Of a stretch of DNA of 64,000 nt, positions 2 through 64,000 are shown one piece after another. The first letter of the stretch is position 1. Each line of letters begins with the position of its first letter. Source of the DNA: a virus; the IMG/VR virus record IMGVR_UViG_3300021091_000027, positions 1-64,000 of that record. One strand, written 5' to 3'. The translations under genes and the position numbers were made by a program. Below the pieces are notes generated by a model. It did not search any database and was not told where the DNA came from. It saw only the letters and a list, made by a program, of their open reading frames with translations.

Positions 2-448
2 CCTATGGGGCCGCCACCTATGGATCCTGCAATGATGGGCGGAGCACCACCTATGGATCCTGCAATGATGGGTGGAGCGCCACCTATGGATCCTGCAATG
101 ATGGGTGGAGCACCACCTATGGATCCTGCAATGATGGGCGGAGCGCCTGCTGCTCCAGCTGCTCCAATCGAACAAGAAATTGCATCTATCAAAGATATGT
201 TGCAACAGTTGATGGATGCACAAATAGCTATGATGCAGATTTTAGGCGGAGGAGGATTACCCCCAGCAGGATCTCCTCCTCCTATGGACCCTGCGATGAT
301 AGGCGCACCTTCTGGGATGAACGGCGGAGCAGATCCAGCAATGATGGGACTGCCTTCAGCTCCTCCTCCGGGAATGATTGCACAAGCTTCTGTAGATGAT
401 GAAGATTTTAATAATTACATAAAAACTATTACAGAGTTACTTAGATGA
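2..448 (+). CDS. Met/Pro/Gly-rich virion protein, C-terminal part (cut by window edge)
   Basis: The reading frame is open to the left edge, so only a C-terminal part is visible and the ATG at 5 is probably internal. It starts with four tandem copies of an 11-residue unit (PPMDPAMMGGA), then an Ala/Pro linker, a short coiled-coil-like helix (IEQEIASIKDMLQQLMDAQ), a second Pro/Gly-rich stretch with degenerate copies of the unit, and an acidic helical tail ending in ITELLR. Low-complexity tails like this occur on phage portal and other virion proteins. The position upstream of the head block would suit a portal, but nothing in the visible part proves it. It overlaps the next gene by ATGA, which suggests translational coupling. 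The function is not recognised. Confidence 0.6.
   Translation, partial: PMGPPPMDPAMMGGAPPMDPAMMGGAPPMDPAMMGGAPPMDPAMMGGAPAAPAAPIEQEIASIKDMLQQLMDAQIAMMQILGGGGLPPAGSPPPMDPAMIGAPSGMNGGADPAMMGLPSAPPPGMIAQASVDDEDFNNYIKTITELLR
14..145 (+). repeat. Four tandem 33-bp in-frame repeats
   Basis: Four consecutive 33-nt units (about 14-46, 47-79, 80-112, 113-145) encode PPMDPAMMGGA. They differ only at a few third-codon positions (ggc/ggt, gca/gcg). The near identity at DNA level indicates recent expansion by slippage or unequal recombination. The copy number may vary between related phages. Confidence 0.92.
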
Positions 449-676: not shown

Positions 677-1522
677 ATGATTGACCCTGTTAGACAACTC
701 TTGGTTAAGATGGCCTATACCCCAAATCCTTTTAGGGGCAATTTATATAATTCTGCTTATAAAGCGGAAAGTCCAGAACAATACGGACAGCTGGTCAGCA
801 GAGATATACAGACCTACGGACATTTGGCCCCAGGATCTGATGAATACAATATGACTATGCAAGAAAAGGGATTTACACCTGAATATATGCAGGGAATCTC
901 TTCAGCAGGACAAAGGGTGCTGCGCGCTGCAAATGATCCTGAATTTGTAAGAGGAATGCAGCAAGGTACCGCAAATATATCAGATCTATACAAAGACTTT
1001 CAAGGCTCCTCAGGCATTGCGAAAGCGCTTGGCGGATGGAGTAACGTGGCGGCCTATGGATTACGTAATCCGATAGATTCTGCTCAAGCTCTTTACGGTG
1101 CGGGAAGAGATTGGCTTACAAATTCTGACCAATCTTCAAAGCAATTTGGAGATAAGTTAATGTCAAGCATAGATATGAATTCCCCCTTAGCTCGTGCTGC
1201 TAAATCAAGAGGGGCCACAACATATCTTAATTCTAAAATTCAAGATATTTTTAGCGGGCTGGGAGGATTTGGAAAAGGTGTTGGAGGCGGGCTTAGTTTC
1301 TTACTAGGTCTTTTGTCAAAAATACCTGGATACGACACACTAGCAAACAAGCTGGTTGATTGGAGTGGGGGATTTAAACCTGGAGGTCAAAGAGCTTTGC
1401 CGCATTCGCCTTTTGCAGTCAAGGCTGGATCAGTTAGATTTATACAAGGCAAGCCTTATTCTCACTATGCCGTCACTTCAACTCAGTGCGGTTCTGAGGT
1501 GCTGACATGGAACCGACAGTAA
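677..1522 (+). CDS. Virion-associated protein with glycine-rich hydrophobic segment
   Basis: A 281-residue protein. A GAGGTG ribosome site lies about 11 nt before the ATG. The N-terminus reads MIDPVRQLLVKMA and carries the hydrophobic-x-K-x-A motif seen at the start of several proteins here. The middle is helical and polar. Residues of about 195-225 form a Gly-rich hydrophobic stretch (GGFGKGVGGGLSFLLGLL) that could insert in a membrane. The 3' end overlaps the beta' gene by 16 nt in another frame. Its role is unknown; a head-internal or ejected protein is an inference from the context. Confidence 0.6.
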   Translation: MIDPVRQLLVKMAYTPNPFRGNLYNSAYKAESPEQYGQLVSRDIQTYGHLAPGSDEYNMTMQEKGFTPEYMQGISSAGQRVLRAANDPEFVRGMQQGTANISDLYKDFQGSSGIAKALGGWSNVAAYGLRNPIDSAQALYGAGRDWLTNSDQSSKQFGDKLMSSIDMNSPLARAAKSRGATTYLNSKIQDIFSGLGGFGKGVGGGLSFLLGLLSKIPGYDTLANKLVDWSGGFKPGGQRALPHSPFAVKAGSVRFIQGKPYSHYAVTSTQCGSEVLTWNRQ

Positions 1523-3366
1523 CAACCGTGGGACAACTGCTGATAAATTCTGCTCTTCCAGAAGACAGCAGAGACTATGGAAGAATCTGGGACAAGCTCT
1601 CTATGAGGAAATTTCTAACGGAAATGGCCTCTAAATTGACTCCCGATAAGTACAGGGAGATGGTTCAACAACTTACTTTAATTGGCTTGAAGAGTGCAAG
1701 ACAATCGTCTTTATCTAGTTTTAGTCTTGAAAGCCTTAAGCCACCAAAGGTTAAACGCGATATAACAAATGTACTAAGACAGGAAGTACGTCAGATTGTT
1801 AGGTCTGTAAAGGATCCTGCCCAAAGAAATGAAGCTATAGTGGATGTAGCTTTAAAGTATCAAAAAACTTTGGCAGATAAGGTGTATCAGGAGTTACTAC
1901 AAAACGATAATCCATTTGCTATGCATGTATATGCCGGAGCACGTGGAAATAAAGATCAGCTGGCTTCTATGATTGGCAGCGATCTTCTCTATAGTGATAA
2001 TAAAGGTCGCCCCGTTCCGATTCCTGTGCTGAATTCATATTCAGAGGGTATGGATCCCGTGGAGTACTGGGCAGGATCATATGGCGCTAGAGCAGGAGCT
2101 ATTGATACTAAATTGGCTGTAGGCGATGCTGGGTATTTTGCTAAACGTCTTACTGCCTCTGCACATAGGCTTGTTGTTACGGATGAGGACATTGAAGACG
2201 GCCAAGGATTTATAGTAGAAGTAAACGATCCAGACAATATAGGTGGAGTGCTTGCTAGAGATGAGGGGCAGTTTAAGAAAGGTACGTATGTGGATGCTGC
2301 CGTACTAAAGGCCTTGAACGTATCTGGCAAGAAGAACATTATGATCTACTCTCCTATCGCAGCCGTAAGTGGAATTGGCGGACTGCCCAGACTGGCTGCC
2401 GGAATAAGAGAACACGGTAAGCTTGCAGAAATAGGTATGAATGTAGGGATTACTGCTGCTCAGGCAATTGCAGAACCTATAAGCCAGGGCATGTTGAATT
2501 CCAAGCACTCAGGGGGAGTATCAAAAGGCAAAACAAAAAGAACTGTAACTGGCTTTAACTATTTAAATCAACTCATAGAAGTTCCAAAAACTTTTACAGA
2601 TGGAGCTCCGGTAACTAAAGCGGACGGCATTGTTGGGAAAGTAGAATCTGCTCCTCAAGGCGGAAACTATGTTTATGTAAATAATGAAAAATACTATGTT
2701 CCAGTAGAGCAATCAGTATCCGTTAGACAAGGTCAAACGTTAGAAGCTGGAGATGCCTTATCCGACGGTATAATTAATCCAAAGGATATTGCTGAGCTTA
2801 AAGGAATTGGAGAGGCTCGCAGACACTTTGTAAAACAATTTAAATCTGCTTTACAGGAGAATGGACTGCCGGTTCATCGTAGAAATGTCGAAGTAGTTGC
2901 AAGAGGTTTGATTAATCAAGTAGAACTGACTGAGTCCGATGTGGTAGAGGGAGCATATCCAGAAGACATAGTGAGTTATGACTACCTAGCTTCAAGATAT
3001 AAACCAAGACAAGGCTTTCAAACTGGAAGTCCTTCTAAATATCTAAATCATTATCTAGAAAAACCAATTTTGCACTATTCTATTGGAACTCGTATAACTC
3101 CCACTGTAGCCAAAGAGCTAAAAGAAAATGGATTCTCAGATGTGATCGTTCATAAAAATCCTCCTCCATTTAAACCAACCATGACTAGAGCTATGATGTC
3201 ATTGCTCGGAGATAGAGATTGGATGGTTCAACTTGGAGGATTTAATCTTAAAAAGACCTTTTTGGATAATATACAGCGAGGATCTACCTCCCAGATACAC
3301 GGCACATCCTGGATTCCAGCTTTGGCTACTGGAGAAATCTCAAAGGGTCCAAAAGGCACCTACTGA
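1507..3366 (+). CDS. RNA polymerase beta' subunit, C-terminal half (split phage polymerase)
   Basis: A 619-residue protein that corresponds to the C-terminal half of bacterial RpoC. It begins at the equivalent of the 'TTVGR' segment (TTVGQLLINSALP, residues 6-18). It then carries the GARG segment (144-147), a bridge-helix region (about 180-215, EGMDPVEYWAGSYGARAG), a trigger-loop region (about 313-345, GITAAQAIAEPISQGMLNSK followed by H334-SGG), and a C-terminus ending in the equivalent of 'GRLIPAGTG' (SWIPALATG). The active-site NADFDGD motif belongs to the missing N-terminal half. The trigger-loop His is kept, but the neighbouring Met and Arg are replaced, and the zinc-binding cysteines before the loop are absent. 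Split beta and beta' genes are known in phiKZ-like and AR9-like jumbo phages. No partner subunits lie in this window. Placement among virion genes would suit a packaged (virion) polymerase, but that is inference. Confidence 0.9.
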   Translation: MEPTVTTVGQLLINSALPEDSRDYGRIWDKLSMRKFLTEMASKLTPDKYREMVQQLTLIGLKSARQSSLSSFSLESLKPPKVKRDITNVLRQEVRQIVRSVKDPAQRNEAIVDVALKYQKTLADKVYQELLQNDNPFAMHVYAGARGNKDQLASMIGSDLLYSDNKGRPVPIPVLNSYSEGMDPVEYWAGSYGARAGAIDTKLAVGDAGYFAKRLTASAHRLVVTDEDIEDGQGFIVEVNDPDNIGGVLARDEGQFKKGTYVDAAVLKALNVSGKKNIMIYSPIAAVSGIGGLPRLAAGIREHGKLAEIGMNVGITAAQAIAEPISQGMLNSKHSGGVSKGKTKRTVTGFNYLNQLIEVPKTFTDGAPVTKADGIVGKVESAPQGGNYVYVNNEKYYVPVEQSVSVRQGQTLEAGDALSDGIINPKDIAELKGIGEARRHFVKQFKSALQENGLPVHRRNVEVVARGLINQVELTESDVVEGAYPEDIVSYDYLASRYKPRQGFQTGSPSKYLNHYLEKPILHYSIGTRITPTVAKELKENGFSDVIVHKNPPPFKPTMTRAMMSLLGDRDWMVQLGGFNLKKTFLDNIQRGSTSQIHGTSWIPALATGEISKGPKGTY

Positions 3367-4698: not shown

Positions 4699-6834
4699 AT
4701 GGCCAGAAAGAACATCATTAAGCTTGCAGATGACGTAACGTTTGAGCAAAACTTCTTTCAGTTGGCTTTTGCTTATATTCGTGACAAGATTCCTAATCTG
4801 CTTGACTACATGCTTGGTTTTGAGGTAGTTAACAAGAACGAGGATGGCACTCAAGCCGTTGGTCTTTTTAAGTTTGACATAAGCGGTAGAGAGCTTTTTG
4901 TACCGATCTTCTACAAGAACGGCGAGCTCAAAGGTGCTGAGTTGCTATATAATCAGAATCAGGACCAGTTTGTTCCAAATAAGGAAAACTGGGTCGATAC
5001 TATTCTAAATGCAAGACCGGAAGAGCTGGGGGTTCCATCCGAGTTAAACAAAGGTGAGATCATGGCAGGCATGCAGTCTGGCATGGATTTATCTAAGATA
5101 TACAACCCTACCCAAAATACTAAGTTTAGCATGGATAGAATGCAGAATTTGTCCAGTCAGTTTAACATTGACTTTAAAAAATTTCTCAAAACCGCTAATT
5201 GTAAGTTTGCTGAAATATATACCAAGACCTTGATGCACAATCCAGAACTTCATAAGGTGGCCATAGAAGCCTACGGCTCTGAACTTTATGAATGTCTAAA
5301 GGGATGTAAACAGTCTGAAACCATTGTATTAGACAACAACAAAGTTCCAGAAGTTGAAGTTATAGATGTACACGGCCCTCAGGATGTTTTGAACAGCATA
5401 ACTGATTCAGAAAAACAAGAACTCATTGAAGAAGGCGTAGTTCTACGAGACAATCGTAAAAACTTGGGAAGAATTTCTTACAAAATTGAAGGGCCCATGG
5501 CTCTGAATGCTTGTAATTGTGCAGGATTGTATAGCGTTTTAATGCCTGGTGGAAGTGTCGACAAGATGGCCGTAATTCCTTCTGCAGTATCTGGTTGCTC
5601 CTACACCTCTTCAAACTGTGTGGAAAGTGTCATTATTGCAGTAGGTGAGGGCAAGTCCGACAGGGTTGAATCATCGAAGGTTTTCTCTTTGGGTGCCTCC
5701 ATGCCAGGATCAGATTTCAAGGCATTTGTAGATAAGCTAAAGTCTGTTGATTCAGCAAAGACGGAAGCTCCAAGCAAAAACTACGATCTAAACAAAAAAG
5801 GAAATTTCAATGTTTTCGTAGAAGCTGACGGCAGCCAGGCTGCTGGACCATGCACTTTGGAGAATGCTGTGGTTAGCGGAGATGTGACTACGTATTCAGT
5901 GTTTGGGTTACCGTGCTGTGATAAAATTGTTGTGTCTCCTTCGTACAGACGCATGAAGATGTTTGACAGAACTTTGTACGTGCCCAAGACGGCAAAAGTA
6001 CATACTTTTTCTGATAACAGGTATCGCAGCAAAATTGAACTTGGCGGAGCTAGGGATATTGATGCCAGAATTAAAGGTTTGAATGATCAGGTCAAGGTAT
6101 CCAAGGATAGAATCGGATTCCGAGTTTTAATAAATGGAAAAACAGTATTCAAGGAAGCCTCGAAGAGAGATGCGTATGTTGGCTTAGTGGCTGGATTTGG
6201 AATGAGCATTTTAGAAGCCAAATCAGCACTTAAGTCTGCAGCTGCTCTTGAAGATGTAGTGCTGTATTTCGAGAAAAAGGCGCAACCATTCTTTGATCCA
6301 GGCATGGTTGCGACTCCAAATGTACCTTCGGCACCCATGGGCATAAATCCCACGTTGGGTGTTGCAGAGCAGTACCCACAAGCCGACACCGTCTCTGCTA
6401 CTTCTGGTCAGCCTGGAGATGTACTTAATCAAAGAATCATGGATAGCATTACTGGAATGGGTCAAGGCCAACAAGGTCTTAACCAACAGTCTGTAGACAG
6501 AATAATGCAGGCAGCACAATCCGGGGAGCAAAACGTATTTGACGTTGCTAATATCTCCGAACTTATAAATCGTGCTGACATAGACACTCCGCTCGATCAA
6601 TACATGGCAGATCTGCAAACAGCCCTTGATCGTTTAGGAAGAATATATTTCCTTATGCTATTCCATGGAGATAAGTTCTCTGAGCGCTTTAGCCAGGAAG
6701 ATTTGCCAAGCATGGAAGAGTCTGTTAGAAATACTTTCCTTAATCTTGGGGAACTAATCCTTAAGCTTAAGGAACGCAAGATCGAAGCAGACTCAGGTTC
6801 TGCAGTTGAAACCGATCTTAATCAGTTAGTGTAA
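4699..6834 (+). CDS. Large unrecognised virion protein
   Basis: A 711-residue protein. The N-terminus is NIIKLADDVTFEQ, with the hydrophobic-K-x-A pattern. Residues of about 1-130 are alpha/beta, and a central part holds several cysteines (CNCAG, SGCSYTSSNC). From about residue 530 there is a Pro/Gly/Gln-rich linker (PSAPMGINPTLG to GMGQGQQGLNQQ), then a helical C-terminus (ELILKLKERKIEAD). It starts shortly after a strong hairpin and shares its last base with the next start codon (taATG). A head-shell or internal head protein is suggested only by position. It does not look like a typical portal. Confidence 0.6.
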   Translation: MARKNIIKLADDVTFEQNFFQLAFAYIRDKIPNLLDYMLGFEVVNKNEDGTQAVGLFKFDISGRELFVPIFYKNGELKGAELLYNQNQDQFVPNKENWVDTILNARPEELGVPSELNKGEIMAGMQSGMDLSKIYNPTQNTKFSMDRMQNLSSQFNIDFKKFLKTANCKFAEIYTKTLMHNPELHKVAIEAYGSELYECLKGCKQSETIVLDNNKVPEVEVIDVHGPQDVLNSITDSEKQELIEEGVVLRDNRKNLGRISYKIEGPMALNACNCAGLYSVLMPGGSVDKMAVIPSAVSGCSYTSSNCVESVIIAVGEGKSDRVESSKVFSLGASMPGSDFKAFVDKLKSVDSAKTEAPSKNYDLNKKGNFNVFVEADGSQAAGPCTLENAVVSGDVTTYSVFGLPCCDKIVVSPSYRRMKMFDRTLYVPKTAKVHTFSDNRYRSKIELGGARDIDARIKGLNDQVKVSKDRIGFRVLINGKTVFKEASKRDAYVGLVAGFGMSILEAKSALKSAAALEDVVLYFEKKAQPFFDPGMVATPNVPSAPMGINPTLGVAEQYPQADTVSATSGQPGDVLNQRIMDSITGMGQGQQGLNQQSVDRIMQAAQSGEQNVFDVANISELINRADIDTPLDQYMADLQTALDRLGRIYFLMLFHGDKFSERFSQEDLPSMEESVRNTFLNLGELILKLKERKIEADSGSAVETDLNQLV

Positions 6835-9966: not shown

Positions 9967-11322
9967 ATGTTTATCAAAGCATTTAGTCCTGATCACTTTA
10001 ATCTAGGTAGTGACGCCCCGTTTGAGATTCTTAGATTTTCCTCAAAGGGTCTTGACTCTGGTCAGGAGAAGCGCGCTAATATGTTTTCCAAGTTGATTGA
10101 AGGATATGTTCCCTCAAAAGACAAGACGGCAGTTCACACGATAGCCATGACTTCTTCAGAGAAATTTGGATTTAATAGAAATGGCGACGGCTGGAAACGT
10201 GCTAATCTAATAAGAGACCATCCCACTTTTATTTCTCATGCAAAGGTGTTTCGCCACCACAAGAATACTCCATTAGATTCCTCTTTTGGAGTTATTAAAG
10301 CTGCTACATTCAACGACGACATGGACAGAGTTGAATTGTTAATGGAGCTGGACAACTCTAAGTGCGCCGAAGAACTGTCTTTGCTTGAGAGAAATGGTAG
10401 CTATCCTGTTTCCATGGCTTGCAAGATTTCACATGACGTATGCTCCATATGCTCAAATAAAGCAAAAACTCCAAAAGAGTATTGTTGGCATGTGAAAGAA
10501 GCGCTTGGCAAGATTATGGATGATGGTAAGATTGTTGGAGTCGACAACCCTCAATCCATATTTTTTGACATATCTAGAGTTATTCGCCCAGCCGATAGAG
10601 TCGCTTATACTTTAAAGAAAGCCTCTACCGGTATCAGCGGAGGAGCCGCTCTTGCAGAAGAGCTAGGATATTCTTTAAATACTTTAGACACAATAGAATC
10701 TACTTTGACCTGCAACTATAAGTCTGCAGAGAAAAAAAGAAAAATATTAGAAAAAATATCAAAAATGGAAAAAAGAATTGATGGCATTGCTCAACCAGCT
10801 GTCATTGATTCTCAAGAGGAGGTAGAGGAGGCTGTAAAAAAGCTTTCTTCTTTTATTCCGATCTATATGGACTCGGTGATGAGAGGGCTTAGCGATAATG
10901 GTATTGTCCTACGTCCATCTGAGTTTTATACCCTTATGACTGGAAATTCTTTGGGACCTACCCAAGCAATAAATTTTAATAAATCTGCAGTTGCCGAAGG
11001 AATAAGCCAATTTTCTTCAGAGGATCTGATTTTTAGTTCATTATATGAGCCGGCAAGCATGAAGATATCTGGCAAGATTGCAAATTTATGTGATGCTATC
11101 AGGCCCTATCGTAGTGTAACTATTCCATTAATGGGTAGAATTATTGGTACACAAATTAGAAAATCAAATCCAATTAAGCTATCTTCTGATTTAGATTCAT
11201 GTTGGTCTAAAGAATATGTTCGATATCAGCTTGAAACATATAAGTCCATCAAGGCCGCATCTTCCGCAGGCGACATTGATGATTTAGTCTTTTGCGGAAT
11301 TTGCCAAAATACTGTAGAATAA
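9967..11322 (+). CDS. Prohead maturation protease (T4 gp21-like serine protease)
   Basis: A 451-residue protein. The first about 220 residues match the herpesvirus/T4-type head protease fold: FGFNRNGDGWKR (about 67-78), the catalytic His in VFRHHKN (H97 or H98), the catalytic Ser in PVSMACKI (S149), and an acidic segment FFDISRVIRPAD (about 199-210) likely to hold the third residue. The CSICSNKAKTPKEYCWH stretch (C159, C162, C173, H175) is a family-typical Cys/His cluster that could bind zinc. The enzyme should cleave scaffold and head proteins before DNA packaging. The C-terminal half is helical and may be a core-targeting region. Position directly before the scaffold and capsid genes supports the call. 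Confidence 0.88.
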   Translation: MFIKAFSPDHFNLGSDAPFEILRFSSKGLDSGQEKRANMFSKLIEGYVPSKDKTAVHTIAMTSSEKFGFNRNGDGWKRANLIRDHPTFISHAKVFRHHKNTPLDSSFGVIKAATFNDDMDRVELLMELDNSKCAEELSLLERNGSYPVSMACKISHDVCSICSNKAKTPKEYCWHVKEALGKIMDDGKIVGVDNPQSIFFDISRVIRPADRVAYTLKKASTGISGGAALAEELGYSLNTLDTIESTLTCNYKSAEKKRKILEKISKMEKRIDGIAQPAVIDSQEEVEEAVKKLSSFIPIYMDSVMRGLSDNGIVLRPSEFYTLMTGNSLGPTQAINFNKSAVAEGISQFSSEDLIFSSLYEPASMKISGKIANLCDAIRPYRSVTIPLMGRIIGTQIRKSNPIKLSSDLDSCWSKEYVRYQLETYKSIKAASSAGDIDDLVFCGICQNTVE

Positions 11323-14092: not shown

Positions 14093-15070
14093 ATGGCATT
14101 AGAACATCTCACAGATATGGAAAAAAGAGCGAACCAAGTTGTTCGTCAGCACCTTGATCAAATGGAGTTTAACCCCGAGTCCACCATCAAGGTCTCTCGG
14201 GCTACTTCAGACTACATCCGCATGAAGCTGCGTGAAGAGGGTTTCCTTCGTAAGATCCTTCCAGCACAGACAATTACCGGAGATGATCTCACCAAGCAAG
14301 TTTCCACCGACAAACCCTCCAAGGTTGTCGAACTAGAGCCAGATTCGCCTGGCGCTATGTCGATCCCCTTCGGCGAGTTTCCAAGCAGCACTTATATCTA
14401 CGGTAAGCGTTGGCTCGTAACCTTTAGCCGCATTGCTACTCCAATGTTCAGTAAGGACGTTGCAGAGCTGCACGACTATGATCTCGACATTCGTCAGGTC
14501 ATTAGCGATAATGCGCTCAAGGATCTACAGGCTGAGGAGGACGGCAAGTTCATTCAGACGATCAACTCGCTCCTCTCCAATGACACCATGAATTCTGAGC
14601 AGAATCTGCCCTACGGCCCAGGTGGTGCAAACATTAAACTTTGGAGGAATCTCTCTGGCGGTCTCACTCGTGAGAACGTCGTTGAAGCCAAGAAGCTAAT
14701 GATGGCTGCAAATGCTCGCCTTCGTCCTCAGACTGCCCTTGTCAACCAGAAGACTGCTCTTGAGTTCGAGAAGTGGACTCGTGAAGAGGTCGGCGGCGAT
14801 ATGGCGCAAGGTATCCTTGTTAACGGTTGGGCCAGCGAAGCCAACAAGTGGTGTGCCCTTAACTGGATCACCACCATCAAGGACGATCTCATCAAGGACA
14901 ACAGCATGTTCCTTTTTGCCGCACCAGAGTTCCTTGGCCGCCTTTATTTCCTTGAGGACACCACAATGTTCGTCAAGCGTGAAGGCCCAATGCTCAGCTG
15001 GTACGCATATGAAATGCTCGGCGGCGGCATTGCCAACGTTGCAGCATGCAGCAGAGTTGACTTTACATAA
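14093..15070 (+). CDS. Major capsid protein (HK97 fold)
   Basis: A 325-residue protein with an AGGAG ribosome site. After a short helical N-terminus (MEKRANQVVRQHLDQMEFNP) the sequence has the expected HK97-fold layout: an E-loop/P-domain start (IRMKLREEGFLRKILPAQTI), a beta-rich region (PFGEFPSSTYIYGKRWLVTF), a spine-like helix (LDIRQVISDNALKDLQAEED), then A-domain segments (ARLRPQTALVNQKTALEF, SMFLFAAPEFLGRLYFLED). The N-terminal extension may be removed by the head protease. Position after protease and scaffold, optimised codon use and a strong hairpin downstream all fit the most abundant head protein. Confidence 0.88.
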   Translation: MALEHLTDMEKRANQVVRQHLDQMEFNPESTIKVSRATSDYIRMKLREEGFLRKILPAQTITGDDLTKQVSTDKPSKVVELEPDSPGAMSIPFGEFPSSTYIYGKRWLVTFSRIATPMFSKDVAELHDYDLDIRQVISDNALKDLQAEEDGKFIQTINSLLSNDTMNSEQNLPYGPGGANIKLWRNLSGGLTRENVVEAKKLMMAANARLRPQTALVNQKTALEFEKWTREEVGGDMAQGILVNGWASEANKWCALNWITTIKDDLIKDNSMFLFAAPEFLGRLYFLEDTTMFVKREGPMLSWYAYEMLGGGIANVAACSRVDFT

Positions 15071-22559: not shown

Positions 22560-25382
22560 ATGGCCAGCCCAAAACCAGCCGTAATTGTTAGAAGAGAATT
22601 TGAAGCCACCCCTGACGTCGTAGCACAACAGCTTCGTGCGTGTATTGTAGGACCCTCTTGCCAATTGGTAAGATTCAAGGAGTCTTCAGAAAAGAATAAA
22701 GGCTTTATTGCTGCCTTCAACTCAGATCCAAGTACAGGCAACGGAGATTTAAAAGCGTTGATGTCAGCGGATGCGAGTTACTCTATTCCCAATCTGCAGT
22801 CTACCTCGTTCCTGGATCTCAGCTATACTAAGGTATTTGCTGAAGATGCACTTTTAACTTATGCACATATTGCAAGCGATGCGGCGGCGGGTTTTTCGGT
22901 GACGGCAAACGCAAATTCAATAGCATTGGAAAACGCTTCGTGGAAGGGCGCAGGCAGATATAGTGCACTTGTTCAAGATGTTGCTGTAGGAGATATTATT
23001 CAGTTCTATACATCTGCCGGGCTTCAGCATACCTCTACTGTATCTGGATTCACAGCTGCTGCTGGATCAAGCTCTTCGATTGGAACAATTGGAGTCAATT
23101 CTGCTCCAACAAACTCTGCAGCAACTACTGTTGTTAGCCCCGCTACTATTTCAATTGGAGGGGCGACCGTAACGATAAGTACAACCAATTATCTTGGAGG
23201 CACAGCTAATCCCACTAGTGCTCAGTACGCAGCCGATCCAAGAATCGTTGGAAAGCTCTCAACTCAATATACAGTAACTATCACCGGACATAGCAGCACC
23301 GGCGTAAGCTACACCGTTGTTTCCGATACAGGGCTTGACAACTTAGTTGCATTAGATAAGCCTGGATCGGGAGGCGCCGCAGTTTCGTTTCCGAGTGGAG
23401 CGACTATCCAATTAGGTTTTAGTAGCCTTCCCCCAGTGGGCTCTCAAACTACGTTTACAATTACTCCTCTTCACACACGACAAACAATAGCTACAGCTGG
23501 CTCTAGCTTTATCGTTGGGGGATCTATCTCTGCTACAGCGCCATCGACTACCTATATCATCACTTGCACTAAGGGGGGCAGCTTAAAGAACTCCACCGCC
23601 AATAATCCAGGAGTTACCTTCAAGGTATTTACCAATAACGGAGCTGATAGTCCCGGCAATTTCACACTTACTGGAGCAGCTAGCCAATCAGTAAGTATTG
23701 GAAACTACGGCCTTACGTTGACAAGCAGCGGCACAGCAGCGATTAGTGTTTACGCTAATGGCTTTGTAAAGGGCGACACCTTTAGCATAACGCTGAATCC
23801 CGCATCTTCTGGAAACATAAAGACTCTAGTCTTTGCAGATGCGGCCCCAGCAACAATTGCGGAGAATACGGCGAATAGAGTGCGTTTGTCCAAAAAGAAG
23901 ACAGTGGAAATTCCTGCAGAATCTGGAGTCGTCAACTGGACCATTACTGATCCAACTTCTGCGGCAGATGCCAAGATTAAGTTGGAAAATATAATGACTA
24001 TGCGTGACTCCTCCGTAAATGCAGGAGGTACGGAAATAAACATCACGGCAGGAAAGTTTTATATTCAGTATCGTGCTTTCCAGGCTATTCCAAGAGAGGT
24101 TGGATCGGTAAATACCCTATCCGACATTACCACTCAGCTGGGGACCATTGATCCAGATAACTTTCTGGCCTACGGTGTATTCAAAGCTTTCTCAAATGCT
24201 AACGGAGCCACTGTTCACTTTATCCCAACTGTCTCTCCCTCTTTAGGTGGCAGTAGAGGATTCGCTGATGCGCTATCTTTGGCGAAGGGCAACAGAAACT
24301 GCTACAGCCTTGTTCCCCTGTCGTCCGACAGTAACGTATGGGATGCCTTTGTAGCTCATGCAAAGGACGAGTCCGCCCCTGAAGTTGGAAGATTCCGCAT
24401 TGTATGGATTGCCCCTGAAATCGACCAGCATAACAAGATTCTTGACAAGGATTCTTCAAACAACGATATCTTGGTGACTTCTGGCTCTTCTTCATACTCT
24501 AGCGGAAAATGGCAAATTGATACCGCTCAGTCCACTAAGTTTACAGAAAATGTTCAGGCTGGCGACTGGGTCAGAATTATAACCGGTTTAACTTCTCAGG
24601 GACAGGAGACATTTAAAGAATACAAAGTATTTGCAGTGCTGGATAACAACAGCTTAGTTATTGATGTAGGTAGCGAGACATTGAGTTGGACTAATCAAAA
24701 GATTGAAATTTTCCGAGATCTAAGTGCAGCTGCTTTGGCAACTAAATACATTCAAGTCGCTGGGGGTTTCAGCTCTGAGCGCGTATTTGCAGTTGTTCCA
24801 GATCGTGGAGTTAACGGTCTTAGAGTTGGCGGCCTTTCTGTAAAGAATTGGAATATTGCTTGCGCCTTTGCAGGTCTTCGTTCCGGCTCCCGCCCTCAGC
24901 AGCCATTATCTAATGTTGAATTACTCGGATTTGATGGGGTTAATATTTCCACACCTGTATTTGATGAGGCAGAACTCAACATTCTTCGTGATGGCGGAGC
25001 CTGGGTTGTCCGCAATAACGAGGAGGGGAGAATATACGCAGAGCGTCAATTGTCGACTTCTACGCTTGACATCTTCCGCAAGGAGCAGTCAGTGACCTCT
25101 AATATTGACTCTATCTCCTTTACGCTTTCCGATTCTCTCAGGAGTCTAGTGGGCAGAGTTACCATCACTAAAGATACTACGGCACTGGTGGCAGCTATAA
25201 TTGAGAAAACCCTATTACAGTTATCCGCTACTGCAGGCGCACTGACTGTAGGGCCTCAGCTAAACAGCTTCACAATTGGCGGTATAACTGTTCCAGCAAC
25301 TGCAAAAGATACCCTAATAGTTCGTGTATCTGTTGCCGTACCGCTGCCGATGAACCTTATCGATATAACTCTTGTAATTTAA
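22560..25382 (+). CDS. Tail sheath protein
   Basis: A 940-residue protein, longer than T4 gp18 (about 660). The N-terminal sheath signature is present (VAQQLRACIVGPSCQLVRF, about 22-40). A long Ser/Thr/Gly-rich insertion (about 110-440) probably forms surface-exposed beta domains. The conserved core resumes with FYIQYRAFQAIPREVG and GFADALSLAKGNRNCYSLVP. The C-terminus has the typical sheath handshake region (VKNWNIACAFAGLRSGSRPQ; RNNEEGRIYAERQLSTSTLD; VAVPLPMNLIDITLVI). The tube gene follows 15 nt downstream. It forms the contractile sheath. Confidence 0.92.
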   Translation: MASPKPAVIVRREFEATPDVVAQQLRACIVGPSCQLVRFKESSEKNKGFIAAFNSDPSTGNGDLKALMSADASYSIPNLQSTSFLDLSYTKVFAEDALLTYAHIASDAAAGFSVTANANSIALENASWKGAGRYSALVQDVAVGDIIQFYTSAGLQHTSTVSGFTAAAGSSSSIGTIGVNSAPTNSAATTVVSPATISIGGATVTISTTNYLGGTANPTSAQYAADPRIVGKLSTQYTVTITGHSSTGVSYTVVSDTGLDNLVALDKPGSGGAAVSFPSGATIQLGFSSLPPVGSQTTFTITPLHTRQTIATAGSSFIVGGSISATAPSTTYIITCTKGGSLKNSTANNPGVTFKVFTNNGADSPGNFTLTGAASQSVSIGNYGLTLTSSGTAAISVYANGFVKGDTFSITLNPASSGNIKTLVFADAAPATIAENTANRVRLSKKKTVEIPAESGVVNWTITDPTSAADAKIKLENIMTMRDSSVNAGGTEINITAGKFYIQYRAFQAIPREVGSVNTLSDITTQLGTIDPDNFLAYGVFKAFSNANGATVHFIPTVSPSLGGSRGFADALSLAKGNRNCYSLVPLSSDSNVWDAFVAHAKDESAPEVGRFRIVWIAPEIDQHNKILDKDSSNNDILVTSGSSSYSSGKWQIDTAQSTKFTENVQAGDWVRIITGLTSQGQETFKEYKVFAVLDNNSLVIDVGSETLSWTNQKIEIFRDLSAAALATKYIQVAGGFSSERVFAVVPDRGVNGLRVGGLSVKNWNIACAFAGLRSGSRPQQPLSNVELLGFDGVNISTPVFDEAELNILRDGGAWVVRNNEEGRIYAERQLSTSTLDIFRKEQSVTSNIDSISFTLSDSLRSLVGRVTITKDTTALVAAIIEKTLLQLSATAGALTVGPQLNSFTIGGITVPATAKDTLIVRVSVAVPLPMNLIDITLVI

Positions 25383-35988: not shown

Positions 35989-37011
35989 ATGGACTTATTT
36001 CCAACCATACCTAAACCTTCAAAGACTCTAAGTCTGTTTAATGGATTTGAGCAACCCGCTTTCTACGATTCAATGGAGGCTATTAAGAAGCCTGCAGAGC
36101 CTCCTTTAGCTCCAGAGCTTCCAGAAGAGCCCCTAAAGGCTCCGGAGCCCCCAGAGCCCCTAGAGCCCATATTCCCCAAACTTGCCCCAACAGGCACTGA
36201 CGGACTTCCTAAATCCCCGCAGATTGCAACAACTACTTTCCCCGCTGCCAGCGCCTCTCCGATTCCTCAAGCTCCGGTAAAAAAACAAACCTTAGAGGAA
36301 ATGCACTCTGATTGGGCTAAAAATAAAAAAACTGAAAATATGCAAAAGATTCTTGATGAACTTTCATCAGATATTGATAAGGCAATTTACGCTTATTCTG
36401 GTCTCAATGCCGGTCCTGCTGTAAAGAGTAAGGCCAAAGTATTGGCAGCAAAAGCTATAAAAACTTATGACCCTAAATCTGGAGCATCTTTAAAAAGTTG
36501 GGTATACACCCAGTTACAGCCTTTAAGCAGATACTCTAGAGATCTTAATCCTTCTCCTATGCCAGAGCGTGCCTATCAGCAGCTAAGTTCCATTAAGAAG
36601 CATGAGGCTGAGTTCTACGAAAATAAAGGCCGTCCGCCTTCAGATGCAGAATTAGCAGATTTAACTGGAATGTCAGTAAAGCAGATTCAAAAAGTAAAGG
36701 AAATGGAAAAGAAGACTTACAGCGAAGGACACACTGCCTACTCCGGAAGCACCCCTGCCACCTCTCAAGAAATTACTGCAACCGAAAATACTAATTTTAA
36801 AAAGAACGTACTTGACACTTTATACAGTTCGCTAACTCCTCAAGAGCAGTTAATCTTAGAACATAAATTAGGCTATAATGGTAAAAAAATACTTTCTAAT
36901 AATGAAATATCTAAAAAACTTGGAATAAGCCCAGGAAGAGTTAGTCAACTTACTTCAGAGCTATCTAAAAAACTGGAGGAGTACGTAGAGTTAAATAAAG
37001 GCAGCATGTGA
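35989..37011 (+). CDS. Sigma-70-family-like transcription factor
   Basis: A 340-residue protein. Residues of about 31-98 form a Pro/Glu-rich disordered stretch. A shortened region 2-like part follows (about 155-184, AIKTYDPKSGASLKSWVYTQ), then region 3 (about 192-240, YENKGRPPSDAELADLTGMS) and a region 4 helix-turn-helix (about 282-332, LTPQEQLILEHKLG; NNEISKKLGISPGRVSQLTS). It would direct an RNA polymerase, host or phage-encoded, to late promoters. It is unusual that it sits inside the baseplate operon between hub and wedge genes. That could mean late expression or packaging in the virion. A TAAAAT box lies just upstream. Confidence 0.85.
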   Translation: MDLFPTIPKPSKTLSLFNGFEQPAFYDSMEAIKKPAEPPLAPELPEEPLKAPEPPEPLEPIFPKLAPTGTDGLPKSPQIATTTFPAASASPIPQAPVKKQTLEEMHSDWAKNKKTENMQKILDELSSDIDKAIYAYSGLNAGPAVKSKAKVLAAKAIKTYDPKSGASLKSWVYTQLQPLSRYSRDLNPSPMPERAYQQLSSIKKHEAEFYENKGRPPSDAELADLTGMSVKQIQKVKEMEKKTYSEGHTAYSGSTPATSQEITATENTNFKKNVLDTLYSSLTPQEQLILEHKLGYNGKKILSNNEISKKLGISPGRVSQLTSELSKKLEEYVELNKGSM

Positions 37012-37871: not shown

Positions 37872-39566
37872 ATGGAAACTCCACTAGCTGAACAACCTCC
37901 AGAAAAAATCTATGCAAAGGAAGAGCAAATACTTTCCTTTGTAAAGGCCACATACCCAAATTTAGATCTATCGCCAGGAACCATCTTGAGAGATCTGGTA
38001 GTAAAACTATATGCGCACCTCGAAACTCGTGTACAAGAGCAGATTGATCTGGCTACTATCTCTAGCAGTTTGCTTGAAATTAGCAAAAATCCTAATGTTG
38101 TAAATAATGAGCAGGTATCTAGAGTATTGTCTAATTTTAATGTTGAGCGAGGCGATGGGTCTACAGCATCCGGACTGTTAAGGCTGTTTTTAACCACAAG
38201 CTCCTCTGTAGTAATATCTCCCGATACTAAGTTTACAGTTGGCGGTGTGACCTTTAGCACCTCTTCTTCATATGTGCTAGTTACTTCGACTAATTTTACA
38301 GGAGCTGCGTCTCAAAGACTTATAGAGTCCTCGGGTACTCTGTTTACCGCTACCTTACCGGTATCGGCAACTAATCCTGGGTCCATAGGAAATGTCAGAG
38401 CATCAACGGTGATTTCTTCTATTGTCCCAGCAATATCTTCTATAGTATCTGGAAAAGCTGATTCCGATTTCATCGGAGGCGCTGATGTAGAGGACAATGT
38501 ATCTTTACTCAATAAGGCTAAGACAGGGGTGGTCGGTAAGGCGCTTTCAGGCAGGGCACACATAAATGCCAAGTTGAAGTCTCAATTTGCTGAGATAAAG
38601 GACGTCGGAGTGGTGGGATTTCTTGATCCAGAGATGCATAGAGATGTTGTCGACGAAGTCCACATAGGTAACAGAATAGATTTATATGTTAAGTCTGCAA
38701 GCTATCCTTCGAGGATAACGGAAAGGCTGCCTATGCAGATGATTTCCTATGACCATCAGTACACCCAGGAGGCGATATTTGAAATCGTGTTGCCGCCTTC
38801 TAAAGCGTCCGGCATATACACAATAGAATCTATTCGCTCTGATCTAACACAGGCTGGATCGTTTGAACTCATATCTGATAAAAGAACCATGCAGGGAAAT
38901 TCAATTCATTTGGTTTCCGATAAGGAGACTCCTGCGTTTACTTCATATCAAAATATAGTATTTAGATTTAAGATTCCATATGTTCATATAAATGAGTGCG
39001 CACTGCCGGCTAATAATGCGATGAGCTCATGGGTAAGTAATGCGGCGCCGCCTGCAATATTTCTCAATCAAGAATCGAGTACACCAGACCAGTTCCATGT
39101 ATACGTAGAATACTTAAAGATGCCTAATCTTAAGGAGGTGCAAGCTTACGTCGATTCGGCCGAGGAGCGTAGTCTCAGCGCAGACATGCTTGTAAAGGCG
39201 CCTATTCCTGTAATGTGCAGTATGCAAATGCGATTACTTAAACCTACTGGCTCTGAAAGTCCTAATGTAAATATTCTAAAATCGGCACTGGTATCTAAGT
39301 TTAATTCTTTTGGGATAGGAAAATCAATTCCAGCAAGTGCCCTAATACATACAGCTTATCAGAATTTGCCGGCCGGATATTCCATAGATCTGCCAATACA
39401 TATGTACGGCGTCATTATAAATCCAGACTTATCGAAGGATGTAATTTTTTCTTCTGATGCGCTGAGGCCTCCTAAAAACTATTCTAAGGGTGTTAGTGAA
39501 AACACCTGTGCTTTCTTCATAGAAGCTAATCTTATCGATATCTCCGTAGTGGAGTGCAACTCTTGA
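37872..39566 (+). CDS. Baseplate wedge protein (gp6 / J-like)
   Basis: A 564-residue protein. The N-terminal helix pair (YPNLDLSPGTILRDLVVKLY, LEISKNPNVVNNEQVSRVLS) and the beta-domain YxF-type segment (TSSSVVISPDTKFTVGGVTF) are characteristic of baseplate J/gp6 proteins. A central region (DVGVVGFLDPEMHRDVVDEV) and a C-terminal domain (KSALVSKFNSFGIGKSIPAS) also fit. It forms the ring that holds the wedges and controls contraction. Confidence 0.8.
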   Translation: METPLAEQPPEKIYAKEEQILSFVKATYPNLDLSPGTILRDLVVKLYAHLETRVQEQIDLATISSSLLEISKNPNVVNNEQVSRVLSNFNVERGDGSTASGLLRLFLTTSSSVVISPDTKFTVGGVTFSTSSSYVLVTSTNFTGAASQRLIESSGTLFTATLPVSATNPGSIGNVRASTVISSIVPAISSIVSGKADSDFIGGADVEDNVSLLNKAKTGVVGKALSGRAHINAKLKSQFAEIKDVGVVGFLDPEMHRDVVDEVHIGNRIDLYVKSASYPSRITERLPMQMISYDHQYTQEAIFEIVLPPSKASGIYTIESIRSDLTQAGSFELISDKRTMQGNSIHLVSDKETPAFTSYQNIVFRFKIPYVHINECALPANNAMSSWVSNAAPPAIFLNQESSTPDQFHVYVEYLKMPNLKEVQAYVDSAEERSLSADMLVKAPIPVMCSMQMRLLKPTGSESPNVNILKSALVSKFNSFGIGKSIPASALIHTAYQNLPAGYSIDLPIHMYGVIINPDLSKDVIFSSDALRPPKNYSKGVSENTCAFFIEANLIDISVVECNS

Positions 39567-56202: not shown

Positions 56203-56778
56203 TTAGAGTAAACCTTTTTGAATTAGCCTTCTTTGAAAATCTCTTGCCAGCTGTTGTTTAAGCTCTGGGTCGGAGAACACCTCTACATCACCTAGATCTG
56301 CTCCAACCGGCAGGTTTTGCATCAAGTTTTCAATTTCCTTATTCTTTCTTACTTTCTTACCATAGCCGTACATTGCTCCAGCGCCGCCTCCCAGTAGAGC
56401 GCCTATAGCTGCGCCAAGTGGAGCATTAGAGCCTCTTAAAGCTCCGACGCTTCCGCCTAATCCTCCGCCCAATAAAGCTCCCAAGGCTCCTGCGCCCAAG
56501 CCTGCCCACGATGGACTGGATAGGCCTGAAGATACTGGGTCTGCTGGGGTGCTAAATAACATTGGCAAAATCTTGGCTTTAGCTTTGTCTATTTCATCAA
56601 TTTCGTCTTTAGTAAAGTATCTTTTGCAACCAAATCCGGGGGTGCACTTGATAGGAACATCTACTATGGATTCTGAAGATGAGATTTCGGCTTTTTTCTC
56701 GGAGATGTCCGCACAGCTTTCTTTAAGCCATCTTCTTAGATCTGCCTTCTTTAAATTAATGTATGCATCAAGATTCAT
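56203..56778 (-). CDS. Glycine-zipper hydrophobic protein
   Basis: A 191-residue minus-strand protein. The N-terminus MNLDAYINLKKADLRRWLKE has the K-x-A pattern. A cysteine pair (CTPGFGC) follows. Two Gly/Ala-rich hydrophobic segments (about 91-114, GLGAGALGALLGGGLGGSVG, and 119-140, GAAIGALLGGGAGAMYG) probably form a membrane hairpin. The C-terminus is polar (ELKQQLARDFQRRLIQK). It is coupled by ATGA to the upstream minus-strand gene. It resembles the protein at 3405 and may act in ejection or membrane interaction. Confidence 0.65.
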   Translation of the reverse strand: MNLDAYINLKKADLRRWLKESCADISEKKAEISSSESIVDVPIKCTPGFGCKRYFTKDEIDEIDKAKAKILPMLFSTPADPVSSGLSSPSWAGLGAGALGALLGGGLGGSVGALRGSNAPLGAAIGALLGGGAGAMYGYGKKVRKNKEIENLMQNLPVGADLGDVEVFSDPELKQQLARDFQRRLIQKGLL

Positions 56779-57476
56779 TTAGACACTCCCTTTGCAAACC
56801 CTGATACAAACTTATTCCATGACCTAGAGTCCTTATTCATCAATGGCACGTTGTTAAGCTCCAGCATCATCTTGCTGGTCCTCCTATCGACATATGCCTG
56901 TACGTCATCTTTGAATTTAATTTGATTTTGGATCATTATTTGAAGTTGTACGGTATCTGTAGCGTAGGATTCCATATTTGCTACATAATCGTTTGGGCCC
57001 ATTTCCGCTACTTTTGAAAGCGATGGAGGCAAACGATAGAGGCCCAGCTCCTTACAGATCTCGCCTATATATCTACGAACTTCTGGACTGAGACGCTCAG
57101 GGGTGTTGGAGTCCAGCATAGTGAGCTCGGTAATAGCCCAAGCACATTCATATGGATCGGCTATGTCAAAGACGTCATAGCTCATAGGTGTTCCACTTAA
57201 AACATTGGCACAGTTCATAAAAGTGGACACATCTGTATGAACTAGGTCGGTCGTCAAAGAGTTCCAAAGTGCCCATATTTTATCGGTGTTCACATCAGGG
57301 ATATCAGATACTGAAAACCCCTCCTCAAGCTCCTGACGAAATGCCTGAGGGTCCATATCAAAGATCTCCTGACCGTAAGAGTCCAGAATCATAGTAAGCA
57401 GCACAGTGCCGACGGTATCCCGACTTTTCCACAGCTGATCGTACGCTTTAGATGCTGTTATGCTTTTAATTGGCAT
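56775..57476 (-). CDS. Minus-strand protein of unknown function
   Basis: A 233-residue, mostly helical, acidic protein. N-terminus MPIKSITASKAYDQLWKS; middle GFSVSDIPDVNTDKIWALWN; C-terminus basic (NKDSRSWNKFVSGFAKGVSK). Helical segments and ATGA coupling fit a virion-internal or packaging-related protein in the terminase-side operon. No family is recognised. Confidence 0.55.
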   Translation of the reverse strand: MPIKSITASKAYDQLWKSRDTVGTVLLTMILDSYGQEIFDMDPQAFRQELEEGFSVSDIPDVNTDKIWALWNSLTTDLVHTDVSTFMNCANVLSGTPMSYDVFDIADPYECAWAITELTMLDSNTPERLSPEVRRYIGEICKELGLYRLPPSLSKVAEMGPNDYVANMESYATDTVQLQIMIQNQIKFKDDVQAYVDRRTSKMMLELNNVPLMNKDSRSWNKFVSGFAKGVSK

Positions 57477-57487
57477 TAGATTTCAGT

Positions 57488-58300
57488 TTATTCTTCTGCC
57501 TTTGCAAGGTTATCTGCGAATATGCCGGCGTTAGGATAAGCCTCGTTGATAAGTTTAGATTGCATCTCAATCTGCTTCTTCAGATCCTTCTTTGTATCAA
57601 GGATATGAGATATAGCTGGATTCTTATAGGTGCCAGTATATCTCTTTTTGGCGGCATCTGATAGCTGCTTGTACATCTTTGCAACAGCTTTGTAGTCGGC
57701 ACCTGGCGCTGCAACGCCTAAGGTGTGCTCCTTTATCAGAGTTTGAATCTGCTTAGCTATATTTGGGTTTTTAGATAGGCTATCAACTATATTCTTGTCC
57801 GAGGTGAATATCCTAGAAAGAAAGCCCATTTCCTTCTTTCTCTCTGCCAATAACTCATCCAGTCGCTTGTCTGCTTCAGATCTATCAAGTAAGGTTAGCG
57901 CTGCACTGCTTAGATTTTTACGTGAATCAGATGTTACCAATGGGTGTTGGCCAAGGCTTATTCCCGTTATTCCCAAAGCTCGTAAGTAAGCGATTGTACT
58001 CGCAGCTAATGCAGTAGCGGTTCCGGGACCAAAAGCTATATCCTTGTCCTTAAGCTTCTTTCCGTCTAGCATCCCCTTTCTACTGACACTCTTGGCCTGT
58101 CGTGCAGCATCGTTGATATTCATTGCTGCGAACTGCAAAACCGTCTTGTTGATGTCGTCGGCCGTCAGGTTTCTATTCTCATGCGGATGCGGAGTCATAC
58201 CTGCCATTCTGTCGTTCCAAAATGACATAAGATACTCCTCTTCTGATGGAATACTGTGTGTGGCAGCTAATTTTCTTAAATTATTTGCTACTTTAATCAT
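57488..58300 (-). CDS. Minus-strand protein with MIKVANNL N-terminal tag
   Basis: A 270-residue helical protein. It starts MIKVANNLRKLAATHS; the first seven codons are identical in DNA to those of the gene at 58315-58731. A short hydrophobic stretch (GTATALAASTIAYLRALGI, about 93-111) is present. The rest is charged helix. The shared tag suggests a common targeting or processing signal. Function unknown. Confidence 0.6.
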   Translation of the reverse strand: MIKVANNLRKLAATHSIPSEEEYLMSFWNDRMAGMTPHPHENRNLTADDINKTVLQFAAMNINDAARQAKSVSRKGMLDGKKLKDKDIAFGPGTATALAASTIAYLRALGITGISLGQHPLVTSDSRKNLSSAALTLLDRSEADKRLDELLAERKKEMGFLSRIFTSDKNIVDSLSKNPNIAKQIQTLIKEHTLGVAAPGADYKAVAKMYKQLSDAAKKRYTGTYKNPAISHILDTKKDLKKQIEMQSKLINEAYPNAGIFADNLAKAEE

Positions 58301-58314
58301 AACTTATTTTTCTT

Positions 58315-58731: not shown

Positions 58732-58733
58732 AA

Positions 58734-62941: not shown

Positions 62942-64000
62942 TTAGTCAAGATCGGTATTATTGTAGTAGGCCGATGGATTACTCATGTGTATGTGCTCGT
63001 CTCCATCCAATACTTCGTCCATAAGGTTTGGTATGAGCTCTGGGTATCTTCTCCACAAGGTTATTACAGCAAATGCTACGGCATGTAGGAAATCGTCTGG
63101 CATTCCAGGATTTCTACGGATGTATCTTCGCTCTGTGCCAAACATACTTTCACTACTTTCTTCATAAACAGCCAAAAAATGGTCCATTATGTTCTGGCCC
63201 ACTGAGTCAACCATGCTGTCATACTGGGGAAATCGTATGTTTTTGTTCTTAATTGCCAGGCATACCGCCGCTATAACTTTACTTTTGTCCAAATTGTAAT
63301 AGCTAGTTGGATTTATACTCGTAGGGGGTACGAATTGCAGCATGGATTTTATACTTCCGCTGGCTGCATATCTGCAGTTTATGAGTCTAGAGTCCGGAAC
63401 TCCGATGCTTCTCATGATGCTAAGCCTTACTTCTCCTGCAACTGCAACGTCATGGGCTATGGTGGTGCATTTAAATTCATTGGAGATTTCTACAATCTCT
63501 TTGGTTTCGAGCACCGAGTCCATCATTGCAGGAAATACATGGCCAAATACGATATCTATGTTTCCATCTGGCATGTAGCAAGCCACTGCAGCAGCTGTCA
63601 TTGATTGAAATCGACTTCCTTTTCCTCCCCAATCCACCCCTAGCACTCTGTCTACGTATTTTAAGACCTGAGAAGCATTTTCCTTAGAGTTGGCAGGTAA
63701 AACTCCAGCGGCCTTTAGCTCACTCTGACTCACCAACCTTTGGCCCTCATCACACGCCTCTCCAAGAACTTCATTGATAAAAACAGCCGGAGCCACCAAC
63801 TCTCTTTTTAAAAGCAATGATTTCCAATTTTTGGGGTTTGCATAATGAACTGGGGCTATGACTTGAGGAACGTGGTAGCTCGGAAAGTTATTAGACTTTT
63901 CTTTATATTTATGAACCCAGAATCCCTTTTCAGGTTGAAGTAGTTTATGACATTTGGCACAGCACAATCCTTCGGGACGAATCATTTCCATAACGCCAAG
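62942..64000 (-). CDS. Terminase large subunit, C-terminal part (cut by window edge)
   Basis: The minus-strand frame is open through the right edge, so the N-terminal ATPase domain is outside the window; the ATG at 63991 is probably internal. The visible part has a zinc-type linker (CCAKC and GFWVHKYKEKSNNFPSYHVP, about 10-42) and then the RNase H-like nuclease: VLGVDWGGKG (D120), TIAHDVAV (D181) and GMPDDFLHAVAF (D299/D300). The linker plus nuclease pattern is that of large-phage terminases. It cuts concatemeric DNA during packaging. It is far from the head genes and on the opposite strand. Confidence 0.85.
   Translation of the reverse strand, partial: LGVMEMIRPEGLCCAKCHKLLQPEKGFWVHKYKEKSNNFPSYHVPQVIAPVHYANPKNWKSLLLKRELVAPAVFINEVLGEACDEGQRLVSQSELKAAGVLPANSKENASQVLKYVDRVLGVDWGGKGSRFQSMTAAAVACYMPDGNIDIVFGHVFPAMMDSVLETKEIVEISNEFKCTTIAHDVAVAGEVRLSIMRSIGVPDSRLINCRYAASGSIKSMLQFVPPTSINPTSYYNLDKSKVIAAVCLAIKNKNIRFPQYDSMVDSVGQNIMDHFLAVYEESSESMFGTERRYIRRNPGMPDDFLHAVAFAVITLWRRYPELIPNLMDEVLDGDEHIHMSNPSAYYNNTDLD

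Follow-up and report, generated by a model that had tools for sequence, protein, structure and literature searches.

The DNA analysed here (the window) comprises bases 1-64000 of the 111,051-bp IMG/VR virus record IMGVR_UViG_3300021091_000027 (G000), in which an open reading frame (ORF) at 1507-3366 encodes the C-terminal half of an RNA polymerase (RNAP) beta' subunit (beta'C). It is fairly likely that beta'C belongs to a two-chain phage RNAP, together with a chain in which beta is fused to the N-terminal, catalytic half of beta' (the beta-beta'N fusion), and that this enzyme is packaged with a sigma factor, enters the cell with the DNA and starts early transcription without the host enzyme. 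In such a system, the catalytic core would be assembled from the fusion (~1640 amino acids) and beta'C (619 amino acids) without an alpha subunit, and a sigma70-family protein encoded at 35989-37011 would give promoter choice. Both chains and the sigma factor would be carried in the virion and injected with the DNA, and early genes would then be transcribed from phage promoters with no need of the host enzyme.

Beta'C and the fused partner found in its relatives

The ORF is open from an ATG start, and homology of its product to the C-terminal half of bacterial beta' begins almost at the first residue. PF04998 (RNA_pol_Rpb1_5) covers residues 181-476 (2.7e-25, 89.8 bits against a cut-off of 28.5), phmmer aligns residues 5-480 to bacterial beta' chains (5tw1_D 664-1174, 1.5e-36), and orthologs are found by the same method in Salmonella phage Arash (gp216, 1.4e-54) and Vibrio phage D69 (VPHD69_0264, 2.7e-62). 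When an AlphaFold2 model built with 23 relatives in the input (mean predicted local distance difference test score 78.7, predicted template modelling score 0.65) was searched with Foldseek, the top PDB matches were bacterial RNAP beta' chains (E ~1e-27). The F-loop region, bridge helix and trigger loop are all visible in the alignment to E. coli RpoC, and the model places helices at residues 184-219 and 313-335, in agreement with an original prediction, made from the letters of the window, that the bridge helix and trigger loop are recognisable. In this alignment, RpoC L930/T931/M932/R933/T934/F935/H936 correspond to G328/M329/L330/N331/S332/K333/H334, so that the predicted retention of the trigger-loop His (His936, here H334) and the predicted change of its Met and Arg are both exact. 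The loss of the zinc-site cysteines was also correctly called, as the whole protein contains no cysteine; in the isolated relatives Arash and D69 this site still has four (232, 284, 291, 294), and because of this retention the cysteines were probably lost within the window's branch. The gene is under purifying selection, since beta'C of contig L005, at the same genomic place and with 96% protein identity, gives a ratio of nonsynonymous to synonymous substitution rates of 0.11 against the window.

The catalytic NADFDGD half had been reported as absent here, and this extends to the whole of the source record, where neither PF00562 (beta) nor PF00623 (the beta' catalytic barrel) has a match anywhere in 111,051 bp. 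In relatives it is found, as the original prediction of a split phage polymerase with further subunits elsewhere would have it: records G002, G004 and G008, as well as Arash and D69, each carry beta and the beta' catalytic half in one large ORF and beta'C in a separate one. These fusion ORFs encode 1640 amino acids in G002, 1638 in G008 and 2034 in G004 (~395 of the latter being an intein), and beta'C of the near relatives is 78-80% identical to that of the window. The fused chain runs from beta into the N half of beta' and stops shortly past NADFDGD, and beta'C begins upstream of the bridge helix, which places the split in beta' after the catalytic barrel. NADFDGD, both catalytic beta lysines and the clamp helices are kept in the fused chain, and the first beta' zinc site is missing from it. 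Among 28 surveyed records with a related beta'C, PF00562 is found in 27 and PF00623 in all 28, with one set each, a count to be read in light of the fact that records may be incomplete, those of Arash and D69 being complete or nearly so. The alpha subunit (PF01000) has no match in seven records, including Arash and D69, in a search whose control was found in 13 of 14 genomes.

The arrangement of these genes suggests why the partner is missing from G000, a fragment that is expected to lack ~60 kb of its genome together with the fusion gene. The portal gene of G000 lies at 103.8-105.7 kb, and the record ends at 111.05 kb, 5.4 kb past the portal, and starts 1.5 kb before beta'C. In G004, the portal is followed after ~25 kb by the fusion and after a further ~37 kb by beta'C and then sigma, and in G002, if the record is circularly permuted, the portal is followed after ~19 kb by the fusion and then by ~41 kb to beta'C. 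The fusion thus lies about 36-41 kb upstream of beta'C in the near relatives, and because of this portal, fusion, beta'C, sigma order, the fusion gene is placed in the missing ~60 kb. The idea that the right end of G000 conceals the partner was rejected, as a tblastn search with five fusion proteins came back empty there.

As another explanation, the ORF could encode an orphan beta' piece that, with no core enzyme of the phage to join, modifies the host RNAP, for instance by taking the place of beta' or capping it; this is the explanation that the original prediction had attached to a genome without other polymerase subunits. It is true that no beta or beta'N is found in the 111 kb of G000; however, G000 is a fragment whose missing part is where synteny puts the partner, and the related records carry the other half in the numbers given above. 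In addition, the bridge helix and trigger-loop His are kept under purifying selection. The orphan explanation is therefore ruled out as highly improbable. Three things go beyond the original prediction: the union of beta and beta'N in one chain, a gene for a virion sigma factor within the window, and the separation of the family from the phiKZ type.

In the fusion, the rifampicin contacts of E. coli beta (Q513, F514, D516, H526, S531, L533) are aligned with A, P, E, Q, I and T in G002 and G008 and with S, T, S, N, I and Q in D69. Since the main contact positions are altered, the fusion enzyme is predicted to be resistant to rifampicin, and the altered pocket would give a simple handle on host independence.

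The sigma70-family gene and probable packaging in the virion

The window sigma is a divergent protein, with a Sigma70_r3 match of 37.4 bits against a cut-off of 25.3, a weak Sigma70_r4 match and a match to the sigma factor family PHROG 351 (4.8e-17). Its orthologs by phmmer are Arash gp10 (2.4e-12) and D69 VPHD69_0011 (1.6e-7), and a Sigma70_r3 match accompanies beta'C in 26 of 29 records, 16 of these being above cut-off. The ORFs flanking beta'C are orthologs of the Arash virion proteins gp218, gp222, gp226, gp233, gp234, gp236 and gp13, in conserved order, which bears out the claim that beta'C is buried among virion genes.

The evidence for packaging comes from mass spectrometry of Arash virions, in which Gp206 was the most detected protein with 3516 spectra, and beta'C (Gp216) and sigma (Gp10) were detected with 1210 and 467 spectra, respectively (PMC10585845). 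Gp206 was named beta in the Arash paper and, according to the domain searches made here, contains both beta and the beta' catalytic half. When unique peptides per 100 amino acids are calculated from the Arash table (PMC10585845), sigma reaches 10.3, the fusion 8.4, the helicase Gp217 8.1 and beta'C 6.6, as compared with 9.8 for the capsid protein, 5.5 for the portal and 0.2-2.9 for most replication and metabolism enzymes. Spectra per residue are nearly equal in the fusion (2.3), beta'C (2.0) and sigma (2.0). It had been suggested that the window's polymerase is packaged to transcribe early genes; of this, virion presence has been shown in a distant relative (PMC10585845), and that the same would hold for this phage, with the packaged enzyme acting on early promoters, we infer.

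Alternatively, the two-chain polymerase could act outside the virion, being synthesised once infection has begun and serving middle or late genes, with its presence in Arash particles being carry-over and with the host enzyme reading the early genes. Peptides of primase, ligase and ribonucleotide reductase are also present in the Arash preparations (PMC10585845), carry-over is an option named by the authors, and a single RNAP set per record could serve any stage. As opposed to this, the fusion is the most detected protein, the RNAP chains (6.6-8.4) have densities like those of capsid and portal rather than those of most enzymes, and the RNAP genes are located in the virion cluster. These densities speak against simple carry-over, although they are not a measure of stoichiometry, and this alternative is considered improbable.

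A further alternative accepts a packaged core but has it working without the sigma-like protein, as in the phiKZ type, with sigma acting together with the host enzyme. No initiation factor can be recognised in phages of the phiKZ type (PMC7598289), the sigma of the window is divergent and weak in region 2, and a second sigma of a more ordinary kind, encoded by both Arash and D69, could be the reader of the motif described below. The second sigma is encoded as gp196 at 120656-121693 of the Arash record (L024) and at 133187-133963 of D69 (L034); it is not in the Arash virion table and was not detected in the window's branch. A sigma-free core is nevertheless rather unlikely, given the regular occurrence of sigma region 3 alongside beta'C (26 of 29 records), the presence of the sigma product in Arash virions at RNAP-like density, and the retention of the beta' clamp helices, the usual dock of sigma.

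Promoter-like motifs, chain forms and the source record

An unbiased 7-mer count over intergenic DNA brought out GGTATAAG in Arash and in record G020 and GTTATAAG in D69, and the promoter-like motif in these phages, written GGTATAAGTA...TG, lies mostly on the non-structural strand, with 18 of 19 sites in Arash, 17 of 20 in D69 and 31 of 32 in G020 being opposite to the structural-gene strand. The motif is often found 25-70 nucleotides before a gene, its conservation extends beyond the 7-mer seed, and it is observed 12 times in a 50-kb piece of Arash (1.4 expected) and 11 times in a D69 piece (3.9 expected). In Arash and G020 alike, the sole site on the structural strand is found 12 nucleotides upstream of a small gene located ahead of the sigma gene, and the same site is present in five more Arash-like records (seven Arash-branch phages in total) and absent in D69 and four other records checked. 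Arash and the five records have common flanks, because of which the site carries less weight, but the flanks in G020 are different.

A more extended proposal, held with slightly less than even confidence, is that a complete packaged holoenzyme (the fusion, beta'C and a dedicated sigma70 factor, without alpha) reads, on injection, a class of phage promoters, of the GGTATAAGTA type in the Arash branch, where this class also stands immediately upstream of the sigma operon and the packaged sigma would thereby regulate its own replenishment, and that one phage lineage has seen recurrent fusion and splitting of the catalytic chain, giving one, two or three chains.

Several observations weigh against the proposed packaged two-chain enzyme. 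The virion data come from a distant source, as Arash beta'C is only 26% identical to that of the window; the Arash authors themselves allow for carry-over of abundant proteins (PMC10585845); and the RNA ligase Gp143, an exception among the enzymes, is as dense as the RNAP chains, with 9.3 unique peptides per 100 amino acids. The trigger-loop Met932 and Arg933 are replaced in beta'C by L330 and N331, and tblastn of G000 with five fusion proteins gave nothing convincing, right end included. The motif of the Arash branch was sought in the window and its near relatives and not found, and in Arash and D69 the motif reader could be the second sigma.

On the window's side, TAAAATA is seen 10-20 nucleotides from start codons at window positions 29811 and 35977, at 84914 of G000 and at several places in G002, and it closely precedes the sigma gene in both G000 and G002. 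Near start codons, the enrichment of TAAAATA or TATAAT is mild in G002 and barely seen in G000. The TAAAATA sites are possibly near-leaderless phage promoters.

Searches of IMG/VR returned 48 loci with a beta'C alignment and 35 with a fusion alignment, on contigs of up to 208 kb. The beta-beta'N fusion is the commonest form among the surveyed records, and two further forms were found. In the three-chain form, beta (~1130 amino acids) and an adjacent beta' catalytic part (~385 amino acids) are separate from each other and from beta'C, with a common break near Arash gp206 residue 1140. In the single-chain form, all of beta and beta' is in one frame, of 2019 amino acids at L156:2787-8846 (G023) and of 2216 amino acids in L105. 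In a tree of the beta'C region, the window joins L005, L006, L008 and L012 at full support, and split forms occur on two well-supported branches, that of the window and that of Arash and D69; the placement of the two single-chain forms closer to bacteria and other phages is not firmly supported.

The RNAP genes of the family carry many insertions. The G004 fusion (L027:3780-9884) holds an intein (PF14890, PF14528), LAGLIDADG inserts are present in RNAP genes of G016 and L136, and beta'C has in-frame inserts at the bridge helix (~206-212) and trigger loop (~325-331) in several contigs. In Vibrio phage D181 (L073:3750-4661), a group I intron interrupts the beta-beta'N gene; it matches Rfam RF00028 with 100.7 bits and comes with a homing endonuclease.

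With regard to the source record, an assembly artefact was ruled out by two independent contigs that match the window across 13 kb, L005 at 89-91% and L063 at 99.96% DNA identity. An ORF at window 5-448, the extreme left end of G000, carries four 33-bp tandem repeats (14-144), and the near relative G003 starts at nearly the same place, ~1.5 kb before beta'C; this repeat may be the cause of the assembly breaks in both records. A contig bridging both ends of G000 was searched for and not found. A 0.77-kb stretch of G000 (~106263-107035, L004) is 97.5% identical to G008 (L055:2-774) but inverted, and does not join the ends; it is likely to represent a recent transfer, as the two phages are otherwise ~70% identical. 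At ~70.6 kb of G000 (~6.6 kb of L002), an intergenic G run is followed by ~20 C, which is either structural or an assembly problem. A short minus-strand gene run at window 56203-60080 stands inside an otherwise plus-strand region, and PADLOC gave only weak matches in it (Csx19, MzaB), probably by chance.

Table 1. Features of the window, with contigs listed for family-wide features
Feature	Window position or contigs	Strand	Evidence
Beta' C-terminal half (beta'C), 619 amino acids	1507..3366	+	Pfam PF04998; phmmer to PDB beta'; Foldseek; Arash/D69 orthology
Bridge helix, residues 184-219	2056..2163	+	36-residue helix in AlphaFold2 model; RpoC alignment
Position of second beta' zinc site, cysteines all lost, residues 226-299	2182..2403	+	alignment with RpoC, Arash and D69
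Trigger-loop helix, residues 313-335, with Q327, L330, N331, H334	2443..2511	+	alignment to E. coli 929-936; model
Ortholog of Arash virion protein gp218	4699..6834	+	phmmer 6.7e-20; 1149 spectra in Arash virions
Ortholog of Arash virion protein gp222, head maturation protease-like	9967..11322	+	phmmer 1.4e-35; PHROG 18299 5.6e-6
Major capsid protein, ortholog of Arash gp226	14093..15070	+	phmmer 6.8e-31; PHROG 2522 0.002
Ortholog of Arash virion protein gp236	22560..25382	+	phmmer 4.1e-31
Divergent sigma70-family factor, ortholog of virion protein Arash Gp10	35989..37011	+	Sigma70_r3; PHROG 351; phmmer
Possible sigma region 2 remnant	36445..36510	+	partial PF04542 match, E 0.009, below cut-off
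Sigma region 3	36580..36723	+	PF04539 E 1.4e-8, above cut-off
Sigma region 4 helix-turn-helix (SPGRVSQLT)	36829..36972	+	PF04545 E 1.2e-5, below cut-off; alignment
Ortholog of Arash virion protein gp13, near sigma gene in both phages	37872..39566	+	phmmer 1.8e-10
Terminase large subunit, C-terminal part (gene runs to 64891 in record)	62942..63991	-	phmmer Arash gp1 6.3e-13, remainder 1.5e-38; PHROG 675 1.8e-31
Three-chain form	L150, L151, L152, L153, L133, L138, L140, L141, L144		
Family RNAP gene insertions	L027 (G004), L155, L136, L078, L079, L082, L085, L086, L092, L108		
Promoter-like motif	L024, L032, L034, L176-L184, L204-L208		

Comparison with known polymerases

Virion RNAPs are already known from the phiKZ type, from crAss-like phages, from P23-45 and, by proteomics, from Arash. 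The closest likeness is to Arash, which has orthologous beta'C and sigma, a fused beta-beta'N and the same virion gene order, with all three proteins (Gp206, Gp216 and Gp10) in virions (PMC10585845); orthologs of beta'C and sigma within a syntenic virion cluster are a trait of the Arash-type RNAP that is found in the window. Arash differs in that its zinc-site cysteines are kept and its early genes are on the opposite strand with the GGTATAAG motif. The Arash paper, in the part available, names Gp206 'beta' without describing a fusion (PMC10585845). The Vibrio phages D69, D181 and D148, whose proteins are for the most part unnamed in GenBank, likewise have the beta-beta'N fusion with beta'C, a sigma ortholog and synteny, but their beta'C is 26% identical and the gap between fusion and beta'C is only 0.6 kb.

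The phiKZ-type virion RNAP is also a packaged multisubunit two-barrel enzyme without alpha, in which beta' is split after the catalytic barrel (PMC7598289). In that type, however, beta is in several pieces, there are at least five chains and two RNAP sets, and no sigma is recognisable, as opposed to a whole beta fused to beta'N, a single RNAP set and a sigma70-family factor in the window's family, and membership in the phiKZ type was ruled out on these grounds. CrAss-like gp66 (PMC10770324) and Thermus phage P23-45 gp96 (PMC7481178) are virion-packaged two-barrel RNAPs as well, but these are single chains too divergent for ordinary beta and beta' profiles, whereas the window's family has two chains with strong Pfam beta and beta' matches. 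Outside phages, rpoC1 and rpoC2 of cyanobacteria and plastids show the same cut of beta' after the catalytic barrel (PMC7598289), in an enzyme that differs in having a separate beta and in possessing alpha and omega. Metagenomic tailed phages with homologs of both beta and beta' have been described, in the available part of that account, with separate subunits and no sigma. In the open-access papers searched, no description was found of a beta-beta'N fusion with a split beta'C and a packaged sigma70, or of the spread of such a family.

The occurrence of one-, two- and three-chain forms in related phages bears on the origin of split phage polymerases. The multisubunit virion polymerases described so far are of the phiKZ type, with at least five pieces and no recognisable sigma. 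In the window's family, a packaged two-barrel core of few chains is apparently accompanied by a sigma70 factor that can be recognised as such, and three genes of the cultured phage Arash could therefore be enough to reconstitute the way in which a virion enzyme recognises promoters.
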